From: Akkermansia muciniphila
GTDB lineage: Bacteria > Verrucomicrobiota > Verrucomicrobiia > Limisphaerales > SXTU01
Direction of reading: 5' to 3'
DNA length: 64,000 bases
Assembly (NCBI GenBank): GCA_945874145.1
Contig: CAMCFN010000002.1
Span: forward strand, 62,001 to 126,000
Shown here piece after piece: positions 22,825 through 28,002 of this stretch (its first letter is position 1; every line of letters starts with the position of its first letter). A program made the position numbers and the translations under genes. The notes under the pieces were generated by a model. It searched no databases and was not told the origin of the DNA. It saw only the letters and a list, made by a program, of their open reading frames with translations.

Positions 22825-22911
22825 TGGTGCCGACGGAGGGGGTCGAACCCACACTCCCGTTAGGGAACAAGATTTTGAGTCTAGCGCGTCTGCCAATTCC
22901 GCCACGTCGGC
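22825..22911 (-). tRNA. tRNA-Leu, anticodon CAA
   Basis: Read on the minus strand, the gene begins GCCGACGTGGCGGAATTGG and ends in an encoded CCA. The acceptor stem pairs GCCGACG with CGTCGGC. The D-arm has GGCAGACGC, the anticodon region is GACTCAAAATC with anticodon CAA (reads UUG), there is a long variable arm typical of leucine tRNAs (TTGTTCCCTAACGGGAG), and the T-loop is GGTTCGACCCC. The length is 87 bases including CCA. It is transcribed away from the DUF1501 gene. Confidence 0.93.
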
Positions 22912-24507: not shown

Positions 24508-26376
24508 TTATGGAATGACCATGTCCGCCACCGTGCGGTTGGCCGGAATGAACGGCAGCACGTGTTCGGTGTAAGGCGTGATGATGTCGAGGAGGTAGGG
24601 TTCCTTTGAGTCGAGCATCCGTTGCATGGCCGCGCGGAGGTCCTTCTTAAACATCACACGCTCGCACGGGACGTTGAAGCCCTTGGCCAACTGGACATAG
24701 TCGGGGTAGATGGCTTTCCGGTTCTCGGGATCCCCGAGGTAGGTGTGGCCACGATTACCGTCGTAGAACTTGTCCTCCCACTGCACCACCATGCCGAGGT
24801 GCTGGTTGTTCAGGATGATGGCCTTGGCGGCAATCTTCTCAATGTGGGCAGTGGCCAGCTCCTGCACGTTCATCAGGAAGGAGCCGTCGCCGTCAATGTC
24901 CACCACCTGCTTCTGCGGGCAGGCGACCTTTGCGCCCAGCGCGGCCGGATAGCCGTAGCCCATTGCGCCGAGGCCGGCACTGGTAAGGAACTGGCGCGGC
25001 CAGGTGTATTTGAACCACTGGCCGGCCCACATCTGGTGCTGGCCCACGCCGGTGGTGATGATGGCGTCGCCGCCGGTCAGTTCGTAAAGCAGCTCGATGG
25101 CGTATTGCGGGAGGATGATCTCTTTCTCCTTGCCCGCGAGGTGGTCCTTCATGTGCTGGGAGGTCAGCACCTCTTCATTGACTTGATAGCGGAAGGGAGC
25201 GCGAGCTTTCCATTCGGCGCACTGAGTCAGCCAGCCGGAATACTGCTTGGCCAACGGACGTTTGCGGAGCATTTCGTTCAGTTTTCCAAGGGCGAACTTG
25301 ATGTCGCTGACGATGGGCAAGTTGGCGGGCTTGTTCTTGTTGATCTCGGACGGGTCAATGTCGATGTGGACGATGGTCCCGCGCTCGCAGAACTTGTCCA
25401 CCTTGCCGGTCACGCGATCATCGAAGCGCACGCCCAGCGCGAGCAGCAAGTCCGCGCCGGGCTTCACGGGGACCATCGGGTCGTTGAAGGACGCACGCTT
25501 TTGGAACTCGCCGCTGACGGCCCAGTTCGCGGCGGCGGAACCGTGCATGCCCAACCAACGGAGGGACAGCTCATGCGTCTCCGGGAACGCGCCGCAGCCC
25601 ATGATCGTGCTGGTGACGGGGATCTGCGTCAGCTCGGCGAACTCGCGGAGTTCCTCCGAGGCATTGCCGCTGATCACGCCGCCGCCGATGTAGAGCACGG
25701 GGCGTTCGGACTTCTCCAGCAGACCGATGATTTCGTTGAGTGCGATGTCGCTGGCGCGCTTGTCCGGATTGTAGCCGCGAATGTTGATTTCCTTTGGGAA
25801 GACGGGCTGGGCTTTGGACTGCTGGATGTTCTTGGGCACGTCCACGATCACCGGGCCGGGCCGGCCGGACTGGGCGATGTAAAACGCCTCCTTGATGATG
25901 CGCGGGATGTCGTTGATGTCCGTGACAAGGTAGGAATGCTTCACGATCGGCAAAGTCATGCCGAAGAAGTCGGTCTCCTGAAACGCGCCCTTGCCGATCA
26001 TCGCCTGCGGCACCTGCCCCGTGATGGCAATCAGCGGAATGGAATCCATGTAGGCATCCGCGATGCCCGAGATGAGATTGGTCGCACCGGGGCCGGAAGT
26101 GGCCATGCAGACGCCAGCCCGACCGGTCGCACGCGCATAACCCTCCGCCATGAAGACGCCGCCCTGCTCGTGGCGCGGCAGAATGGTCCGAATCTTCGAC
26201 CGGGTGAGTGCCTGATGGAATTCCATGCTGGCCCCACCGGGATAGGCGAAGATGGTGTCCACGCCCTCGCGTTCGAGACATTTGATGAGGATTTCACTCC
26301 CCATCATGGCGGGGCCGATTTCGGCCTTCTCGGTGGCGGGCGGCTTGGACTCGGTGGTTTCCGTTGCTTTGCTCAT
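24508..26376 (-). CDS. ilvB: Acetolactate synthase, large (catalytic) subunit
   Basis: Encodes 622 residues. It condenses two pyruvates, or pyruvate plus 2-oxobutyrate, in the first shared step of valine, leucine and isoleucine synthesis. Thiamine-diphosphate features are the [15 protein letters not shown] segment near 45-59 and the cofactor-binding GDGSF ... NNQHLG region near 496-527. The first 20 residues are Thr/Glu/Pro-rich and not part of the fold. I chose the ATG at 26376. The longer frame to 26475 would run through the attenuator hairpin. No ilvN gene for the regulatory subunit is adjacent. Downstream it converges with the DUF1501 gene (4 bases between the two stops). Confidence 0.96.
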
Positions 26377-26415
26377 GGCTTGCTTTTGGTTTTTGGCTGG
26401 CGGCGCGTGGCGAAC

Positions 26416-26447
26416 AAAAAACCCACGACTGCTGCCAGCCGTGGGTT
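26416..26447 (-). terminator. Attenuator-type intrinsic terminator upstream of ilvB
   Basis: On the minus strand, AACCCACGGCTG (26447-26436) pairs with CAGTCGTGGGTT (26431-26420) around a GCAG tetraloop. That is 12 base pairs with one G-U pair. Six Ts (26421-26416) follow. It lies between the 15-residue valine leader (stop at 26463) and the ilvB start (26376), so it would stop transcription before ilvB unless an alternative fold forms. Confidence 0.82.
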
Positions 26448-26462
26448 CTTGTCGAAATTCGC

Positions 26463-26510
26463 TTACGCCCGACAAGCTCCCCCGGCGTCGCCGACTACGA
26501 CGACTACCAT
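26463..26510 (-). CDS. Valine-rich leader peptide of ilvB (15 aa)
   Basis: Reads ATG then five successive valine codons (GTA GTC GTC GTA GTC), then GDAGGACRA and a TAA stop. A run of the end-product amino acid directly upstream of an intrinsic terminator and a branched-chain biosynthesis gene is the classic mark of an attenuation leader. The stop codon lies 15 bases before the terminator stem. No strong Shine-Dalgarno is visible (upstream bases are gtaaaacaagttctgccc). It was found by eye because it is too short for ordinary gene calling. No peptide evidence exists. Confidence 0.75.
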
Positions 26511-26547
26511 GGGCAGAACTTGTTTTACCGGGCCAAACATCAATCCG

Positions 26548-26576
26548 ACGCTAGTAATAGCGAAAAGGCCGGTCAA
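26548..26576 (-). promoter_or_regulatory. Candidate promoter of the ilvB leader
   Basis: On the minus strand TTGACC (26576-26571) precedes TAGCGT (26553-26548) with a 17-base spacer. The -35 is good and the -10 is weak. Transcription would begin near 26541, about 30 bases before the leader peptide ATG. The remaining bases to 26769 hold nothing else that I can support. Confidence 0.4.
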
Positions 26577-26769
26577 GCGTGGATTCGAGCGCTCGCAGAC
26601 GGGCCTGCCCAATGGGAGAGATAAGGCTTTCCCCAACTCCACCAGTCTGGCTCTATCTGCGGGCCGAAGCGGGAGGAGCAGGAATCGAAGTGGGATTACA
26701 GGCTGAAGGCGATGCCGGACGCTGCGGGAATGCCACTTTTCCGTCCTGCTCTCCCATCTGTTTACAAAC

Positions 26770-28002
26770 ATGAGCACATCTGCCACACCGACCCCTGCCC
26801 TGCCCATCGTCATTCTCAAGCCCCGTGAAGCCGACCGCGTCGTCGCCGGCCATCCGTGGATTTACGCGGGATCGGTGATGTATGCCGCTCCCACGATCAA
26901 GGACGGCGATCTCGTCGAACTGCGCGATCATCGGAAACACTGGCTGGGCGTAGGCCTGTTCAATTCGCAGTCCAAAATCCAAGTCCGGCTGCTCACGCCG
27001 GAACACGTCGAGGTCAACCTAGCCTTCTTCGAGGAGCGCATCCGTGCCGCACTGGCCTTGCGCCAGCGCCACTTCCCCGGTGCCACTTCCTTTCGCGTCG
27101 TCAATGCCGAGAGCGATTTTCTCAGCGGCCTCATCGTGGACAAATACGAGGACGTGCTGGTGGTGCAGACCTCCGCGCTCGGAATGGACCAGCGCAAGCC
27201 GCTCATCGTGGCGGCGCTGAAGACCATCTTCCAGCCGCGCACCATCGTCGAGCGCAACGAGATGGCTTCGCGCAAGTTTGAAGGGCTCCCGGATGCGAAT
27301 GGCATTCTCGAAGGCCAGCTCGACGGACCGGTGACGGTCAACCTCAACGGCCTCAAGTTCGAGACCGACCTGAGCGCCGGCCACAAGACCGGGCTCTATC
27401 TCGATCAGCAGGCCAATTACCAGCGGACGGCGGAACTGATCGCGCTGAATCCGAATGCCAGCGTGTTGGATTGCTTCAGCTTCCTCGGCGGATTTGCCCT
27501 CCACGCGGGCCGCGCCGGTGCCGCACGGGTGCATGGGCTTGACCAGAGCGCGGACGCCATCGCCGCCGCCACGCGCAATGCCGCTGCCAACGGCCTCGCG
27601 GAGAAATGCACCTTCGAGCAGGCAAACGTCTTCGACTGGCTCAAAAGCCAAACCGCCGTCGCCCCCCACGAGAAGCTCGTGCCCAAGTTCGACGCCGTCA
27701 TCCTCGACCCGCCTTCCTTCACCCGGAACCGCGGCTCCGTGCCGGATGCGTTGCGCGGCTACAAGGAAATCCACCTCCGCGCGCTCAAGCTTCTCAAGCC
27801 GGGCGGCCTGCTGGCCACCTTCTGCTGCTCGCACCATGTGGACAGCGCGACCTTCCAAGATGTGATTCTCTCCGCCGCGTTCGACACGCGCCGCGTGCTC
27901 CGCCGGGTGGCCACCTTCGGCCAGTCACCAGATCATCCGGTTATCCCGAGCATTCCTGAGACCGAGTATCTCAAGGGCTTTGCCTTTGAAGTCGTGCGGT
28001 AG
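26770..28002 (+). CDS. RlmI-like 23S rRNA (cytosine-C5) methyltransferase
   Basis: Encodes 410 residues. An N-terminal PUA-like RNA-binding domain (about 10-85; AGHPWIYAGSV) is followed by a linker with NGLKFETDLSAGHKTGLYLDQ (about 198-218) that marks the RlmI/YwbD family, then a Rossmann methyltransferase domain with motif I SVLDCFSFLGGFALHAG and catalytic-type motif DPPSFTRNRG. Family members methylate C1962 of 23S rRNA in E. coli numbering. The ATG at 26770 starts 9 residues before the first strand. It is divergent from ilvB and convergent with the EF-hand membrane protein gene. Confidence 0.9.
   Translation: MSTSATPTPALPIVILKPREADRVVAGHPWIYAGSVMYAAPTIKDGDLVELRDHRKHWLGVGLFNSQSKIQVRLLTPEHVEVNLAFFEERIRAALALRQRHFPGATSFRVVNAESDFLSGLIVDKYEDVLVVQTSALGMDQRKPLIVAALKTIFQPRTIVERNEMASRKFEGLPDANGILEGQLDGPVTVNLNGLKFETDLSAGHKTGLYLDQQANYQRTAELIALNPNASVLDCFSFLGGFALHAGRAGAARVHGLDQSADAIAAATRNAAANGLAEKCTFEQANVFDWLKSQTAVAPHEKLVPKFDAVILDPPSFTRNRGSVPDALRGYKEIHLRALKLLKPGGLLATFCCSHHVDSATFQDVILSAAFDTRRVLRRVATFGQSPDHPVIPSIPETEYLKGFAFEVVR

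Follow-up and report, generated by a model that had tools for sequence, protein, structure and literature searches.

The ilvB gene in this stretch of DNA is very probably controlled by a classical ribosome-mediated transcription attenuator. In the window (the whole 64-kb stretch that was analysed), the element lies on the minus strand ahead of ilvB, which encodes the large subunit of acetolactate synthase (24508-26376, minus strand, 622 amino acids; TIGR00118, 675.1 bits with a cut-off of 538.35). A first-pass annotation had proposed attenuation of this kind, and its elements were all found on the minus strand by direct reading: a TTGACC box, five valine codons, a hairpin with a GCAG loop, six Ts, and the ilvB start. 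The conserved leader, the terminator, and the alternative pairings described below also bear out the proposed mechanism. The reading frame, its codon run, the alternative pairings, and their conservation across the window's order are established by the sequence. From these, we infer that the leader is translated, that termination is regulated, that valine is the signal, and where exactly transcription starts.

We begin with the leader frame. It runs from an ATG at 26540 to a stop codon at 26465-26463 (26463-26540, minus strand; 25 codons plus the stop). The frame had initially been read as 15 codons from ATG 26510, but this internal ATG is present in just 2 of 65 aligned rows, and the conserved start is the one ten codons upstream. 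(The alignment, A1, comprises the window and 64 of 78 leaders from related loci; the other 14 were dropped as more than 85% identical.) At the ilvB loci of the order, the leader typically begins M(F/L)..xRQV.. and has a conserved end, CR. Two features of these leaders argue that they are translated. First, of the 191 alignment gaps in the leader columns, all but one (in L072), or 190, are multiples of three nucleotides long, as a translated frame would show. Second, GTA makes up 28.9% of the valine codons in the leaders versus 2.3% of those in ilvB.

The putative regulatory codons are five consecutive valine codons, GTA GTC GTC GTA GTC (26493-26507, minus strand; identified from the sequence and the alignment). 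Valine accounts for 27.1% of leader residues versus 7.3% of the residues of IlvB, and a run of five valine codons did not arise in any of 2000 dinucleotide shuffles of 26377-26700. Might the attenuator respond to branched-chain amino acids generally (valine together with leucine or isoleucine), instead of to valine alone? Leucine makes up 8.9% of leader residues, isoleucine or leucine occurs within or beside the run in some leaders (L008, L010, and L012), and the E. coli leader, IvbL, also carries leucine codons. Against this, 64 of the 65 rows have at least three valine codons inside the 14 codons ahead of segment 2 (a pairing segment that we describe next), and leuA has its own leucine-rich leader. 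We consider general sensing to be unlikely, although it is the alternative that we take most seriously.

We then examined how the leader RNA could pair. Judging from the sequence, its segments are arranged as 1:2, 2:3, and 3:4 hairpins, which is the textbook attenuator design. (All of these features are on the minus strand.) The 3:4 hairpin is the predicted intrinsic terminator (26416-26447; identified from its fold and its conservation). By direct reading, its 12-bp stem has the arms AACCCACGGCTG (26447-26436) and CAGTCGTGGGTT (26431-26420), its loop is GCAG (26435-26432), and the six Ts are at 26421-26416. Segment 2 (GCCGGGGG...CTTGTCG, 26470-26486) has segment 1 and segment 3 as alternative partners. 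Segment 3 (CGACAAG..CCCACGGC, 26438-26454) could pair with segment 2, which gives the antiterminator, or, via CCCACGGC, with segment 4, which gives the terminator. In these models the two structures are mutually exclusive. In general form, the antiterminator pairs GCCGnnGG with CCCACGGC and CTTGTCG with CGACAAG. Both halves had been noticed in the first-pass annotation. The complementarity of GCCGGGGG to CCCACGGC, with one mismatch, is as claimed, but GCCGGGGG lies at 26486-26479 instead of 26484-26491; and CTTGTCG (26476-26470) does pair with CGACAAG (26454-26448), but it makes up the top of that antiterminator instead of forming a hairpin of its own. The 1:2 hairpin would act as an anti-antiterminator. 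It is formed by an early segment resembling CGACAAG, which imitates segment 3 and pairs with CTTGTCG, plus an inner GTCG:CGAC pairing. The window's own 1:2 pairing is shifted: segment 1 (ACAAGTTC, 26516-26523) pairs with GAGCTTGT, in the part of segment 2 at 26479-26472.

Among the 65 sequences of A1, all three pairings are conserved well beyond what is seen if the partners are slid relative to each other. The terminator is paired in 98.1% of cells (30.5-50.8% when slid), the antiterminator in 81.2% (30.5-54.7% when slid), and the 1:2 hairpin in 78.2% (35.4-51.6% when slid). The 1:2 hairpin also covaries: 11 of its 13 pairs are changed on both sides, and its covariation score was reached by none of 500 shuffles. 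In the antiterminator, one pair is switched from C-G to U-A in 10 sequences, and two shuffle measures are unremarkable (271 of 500 shuffles reached its number of doubly changed pairs and 186 of 500 reached its pair types). By itself, the RNAalifold consensus contained the terminator only, with no alternative hairpins predicted. The leader RNA has a predicted folding energy of -65.7 kcal/mol, whereas 200 shuffles averaged -40.8 (z = -7.1) and none did as well; the predicted fold also supports the 1:2 hairpin. The isolated 60-nt stretch of the window that contains segments 2 and 3 folds into the antiterminator, so together with the conserved 2:3 pairing, the earlier suggestion that an antiterminator is possible holds up.

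These features suggest the following mechanism. Transcription would start at the leader AUG (26540) or a few bases ahead of it, and a ribosome would load on an RNA with almost no 5' untranslated region. In a shortage of Val-tRNA, this ribosome would stall on the five valine codons, two of which are the rare GUA. Segment 1 could then not hold segment 2, so the 2:3 antiterminator would form and RNA polymerase would read into ilvB. With plenty of Val-tRNA, it would instead reach the stop codon and mask segment 2, the 3:4 hairpin would form, and transcription would end at the T run. If there is no ribosome, then 1:2 would form, and termination would again be the outcome. The spacing fits this scheme: the stop codon lies 13-21 nt from the terminator stem (median 15, 78 loci), so that, as modelled, a terminating ribosome would mask segment 2 but spare the terminator. 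When the footprint of a ribosome at the stop codon was blocked, the terminator was still the computed fold. For a nascent RNA that ends ahead of the 3' arm of the terminator, the computed fold was 2:3 if the bases that a ribosome on the valine codons would cover were blocked and 1:2 without a ribosome. Once the leader is complete, its equilibrium fold retains the terminator even when these bases are blocked (-41.1 kcal/mol). Since the terminator is favoured with or without the block, antitermination would have to rest on co-transcriptional timing, which is usual for attenuators.

Next, we considered the promoter. The -35 box of the predicted promoter, TTGACC (26571-26576, minus strand), was read directly, and TTGAC is present in all 79 upstream regions (the window and 78 loci). 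The predicted -10 box, TAGCGT (26548-26553, minus strand), is 17 nt from the -35 box and 7 nt ahead of the leader ATG. A simple consensus scan reported no promoter at the element; TAGCGT matches TATAAT at 3 of 6 positions. In 73 of the 79 regions, the hexamer 16-18 nt past TTGAC fits the pattern NANNNT. In 68 of 78, the first suitable start codon is 6-11 nt past the -10 hexamer. (In several regions, including the window, the script picked an alternative TTG or GTG start; the window's ATG lies 7 nt past the hexamer.) Taken as a whole, from promoter to start codon, the pattern was found in 71 of 78 regions versus 11 of 3900 shuffles. Since the promoter abuts the leader ATG, the transcript is predicted to start at the ATG or a few nucleotides away, and the leader RNA is probably leaderless or nearly so. 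At the ilvB start, among the 56 loci whose match begins at ATG, none had a Shine-Dalgarno-like tetramer ahead of it.

This layout resembles that of trpL from Sinorhizobium meliloti, in which the 5' end of the leader RNA is the leader ATG, according to PMC7298713. (That system is from another phylum and concerns tryptophan.) In S. meliloti, the terminated RNA and the peptide (rnTrpL and peTrpL) act in trans, and the terminated RNA or the peptide could do so here as well. Like rnTrpL (PMC7298713), the terminated RNA predicted here would have its 5' end at the ATG, and the end of the peptide (CR) is conserved. However, the pairing of the segment 2 RNA accounts for the conserved peptide end, and an additional role in trans seems very improbable.

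The element could also be a ligand-binding riboswitch, a T-box, or a ppGpp-type element, with the small frame being incidental. A conserved RNA structure is indeed present, and a ppGpp riboswitch is described as controlling ilvB in some bacteria (PMC10272879). But with Rfam 15, no family reached its gathering score at the element or in 16 related loci. (The sole match within the 64-kb window is a distant tRNA gene, at 22828-22911 on the minus strand.) The best weak match at the element is itself an attenuator, His_leader (RF00514), at 21.2 bits, which is under the cut-off of 49. Furthermore, a valine run with enriched GTA codons and in-frame gaps would not be expected of an aptamer. We view a riboswitch or T-box as very improbable.

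A valine run due to chance beside an ordinary terminator, as might be suggested by the consensus scan having reported neither promoter nor terminator, has a negligible probability, given the order-wide conservation of both leader and alternative pairings, the covariation of 1:2, the shuffles of 26377-26700 (some terminator-like hairpin in 497 of 2000 but a VVVV leader adjoining a terminator in 0 of 2000), and the lack of a co-directional gene upstream. The upstream neighbour is a divergent rRNA methyltransferase-like gene (26770-28002, plus strand; from the list of open reading frames and a profile match), so the terminator serves no preceding gene. Some of the T run can be drawn into the stem, and this may explain how the scan missed the hairpin. 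(The plus strand also has a 694-codon open frame, 24622-26706, antisense to ilvB and the leader; this is probably an effect of base composition.)

To see how widespread the attenuator is, we picked ilvB loci by the similarity of the IlvB protein alone. These were the best 80 of 399 stretches that encode it, at 71-93% identity. In 78 of the 80, with no threshold applied, a reading frame ends just ahead of a hairpin and T run upstream of ilvB. With a threshold of at least four valines and a run of at least two, 75 of the 80 have a valine-rich leader and terminator. Of the five failures, three are weaker (L040, L047, and L066), L057 lacks a terminator, and L032 is cut by the end of the contig; L032 still carries the element, as it matches our RNA model at 93.5 bits. 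This model, R1, has 136 positions, and it matched 219 of 245 genomes of the order (including some of those used to build it), 124 of the 129 better genomes, and 108 of 115 sampled genera. Whether relatives share the leader and hairpin had been set beforehand as a test of the attenuator, and the proposal came through it, both by locus (75 of 80) and by genome (219 of 245). By the order we mean that of the window; relatives titled Limisphaerales, Pedosphaera, or Verrucomicrobia subdivision 3 span more than one order in the NCBI taxonomy. (L010, L011, L019, and others are titled Klebsiella pneumoniae, Akkermansia muciniphila, or Proteobacteria, and look mislabelled: their ilvB and leader resemble those of the window's order.) R1 also has a second match in the window's own genome (G000:C23:9546-9728, 29.6 bits), which by eye is an ordinary terminator behind an oxidoreductase-like frame.

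We also searched outside the order. In an even draw of 387 genomes from the phylum, of which 348 have an ilvB match at E ≤ 1e-100, R1 matched 26 genomes at E ≤ 0.1. Two of these are within the order; the other 24, of 385 genomes outside it, do not exceed the approximately 38 expected if the E-values hold. We inspected 17 of 18 weak loci outside the order, and all but two (L142 and L154) looked like chance matches or like the ends of genes with their terminators. These two have a branched-chain-rich frame. The one in L142 (385-541, genome G323) is a valine-containing frame with a CCCACGG hairpin, away from ilvB; by eye it precedes a methyltransferase-like frame and then a homoserine dehydrogenase-like frame, and it is perhaps a relic or another attenuator. 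The element in L154 (1440-1660, genome G120) was found to precede ilvB. In the order that G120 belongs to, a leader with a Val/Leu/Ile run and a terminator precede ilvB at 9 of 14 loci (L316 has just 61 nt of upstream DNA). These leaders (L154, L313, L314, L317, L318, and L320-L323) differ in sequence from the window's. Among 28 ilvB upstream regions from other orders of the class, we found no convincing leader: two of them, L103 and L112, have enough valines, and on inspection both are the ends of upstream frames. Another 60 ilvB upstream regions from outside the order included four that passed a test for Val/Ile/Leu runs, of which three look real and come from one family, a third lineage (L255, L263, and L269), with leaders of the form (I/H)LVxVxSPAxxxVG and a hairpin and T run ahead of ilvB. 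Going by sequence, attenuator-like ilvB leaders recur in the phylum with differing sequences, and the conserved valine form is that of the window's order.

Attenuators of this kind are already known. One of the closest is that of E. coli, which lies ahead of the same gene and also has a valine-run leader (VVVVRVVVVVGNAP in the comparison of the leaders; IvbL is MTTSMLNAKLLPTAPSAAVVVVRVVVVVGNAP) and a GC-rich hairpin with a T run. The first-pass annotation had contrasted the window's valine-only run with E. coli; this contrast fails, as the leader of E. coli ilvBN, IvbL, is itself a valine-run peptide, and so a valine run is not unusual for ilvB. R1 matches E. coli ivbL weakly, on the right strand and in the right place (22.7 bits, E = 0.00026 for 5 kb). 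The likeness is one of design, though: the terminator and flanks are different, and the E. coli leader has 32 codons.

Other ilvB attenuators are compared here by their published descriptions. In Corynebacterium glutamicum, the ilvBNC attenuator is described as having an antiantiterminator, an antiterminator, and a terminator, and it is discussed as a leaderless mRNA (PMC11857589, PMC10272879). Its branched-chain leader, IlvL (MTIIRLVVVTARRLP; the ilvB-II motif), follows the same three-state logic, but it is from another phylum, its leader and RNA sequences are different, and it has a run of three valines. The Leptospira ilvB motif and the ilvB-OMG motif are likewise predicted uORF attenuators ahead of ilvB, and the Leptospira leaders are all reported to have at least three consecutive valine codons (PMC10272879). 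The same paper, from 2023, proposes that ilvB is often under uORF attenuation. Similar ilvB leaders have been described in Actinobacteria, and the regulation of an attenuator-like ilvB leader in Streptomyces coelicolor reportedly survived codon substitutions (PMC1262725). As for phyla, a 2010 survey gives leader-peptide attenuation as known from Proteobacteria and Actinobacteria and adds the Firmicutes (PMC2965389). Among the open-access papers listed by our searches, none is on such attenuation in Verrucomicrobiota, judging by titles and the beginnings of abstracts; an earlier mention may exist. Ribosome-mediated attenuation is thus a known kind of regulation, represented by ivbL of E. coli and ilvL of C. 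glutamicum; as far as could be searched, what is new is the lineage, the depth of conservation, and a partner attenuator at leuA.

The partner came to light through a weak match to R1: it is a leuA leader, MNHSLNLHLILALPRSAAVGL*, with a terminator after it (L161 1692-1831, the same locus as L164). A leuA match at E ≤ 1e-100 is present in 26 of 58 genomes of the order. (In the window's own genome, which is 82% complete, we found no leuA of that kind.) At 24 of the 26 loci (among L164-L189), a leader with 4-11 leucines adjoins a terminator. By eye, the leader is near VNRNLNLxLLLNALLLGxAAVGF*. Of the two that fail, L185 is a gene fragment, and L172 has a leader and hairpin by eye. A stricter script kept 18 of the 26 loci, and 17 of those form alignment A2, without L181. 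(L190, a second leuA fragment, was left out.) The promoter is present in 17 of the 18 loci, and in 14 of those 17 the start codon is 6-9 nt past the -10 box. In the 17 sequences of A2, the putative antiterminator is paired in 98.0% of cells (31.4-63.3% when slid) and the terminator in 93.6% (35.8-58.4% when slid); there are too few base changes among these 17 sequences to test covariation.

Taking ilvB and leuA together, we lean towards the view that this order controls its branched-chain pathway through two leaderless sensors, with an attenuator on ilvB responding to valine and one on leuA responding to leucine. For each of them, the promoter would end about 7 nt ahead of the leader start codon, and ribosomes would enter at the 5' end without a Shine-Dalgarno sequence. 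Elsewhere in the phylum, comparable ilvB leaders with other sequences would have arisen or been retained. In Verrucomicrobiota, this probable attenuation is deeply conserved and spans two genes of one pathway, and the near-leaderless layout would offer a natural test of the coupling between translation from a 5'-terminal start codon and transcription.

As controls, we looked at trpE and hisG from the same order. A frame with at least two of the cognate residues, adjoining a terminator-like hairpin, was found for 1 of 30 loci in each case. The hisG match (L238) was not convincing. The trpE match (L207, within 500 nt upstream of trpE) encodes MPDWVWGWRWGLGMS* and has a weak hairpin, and it could be a real tryptophan leader.
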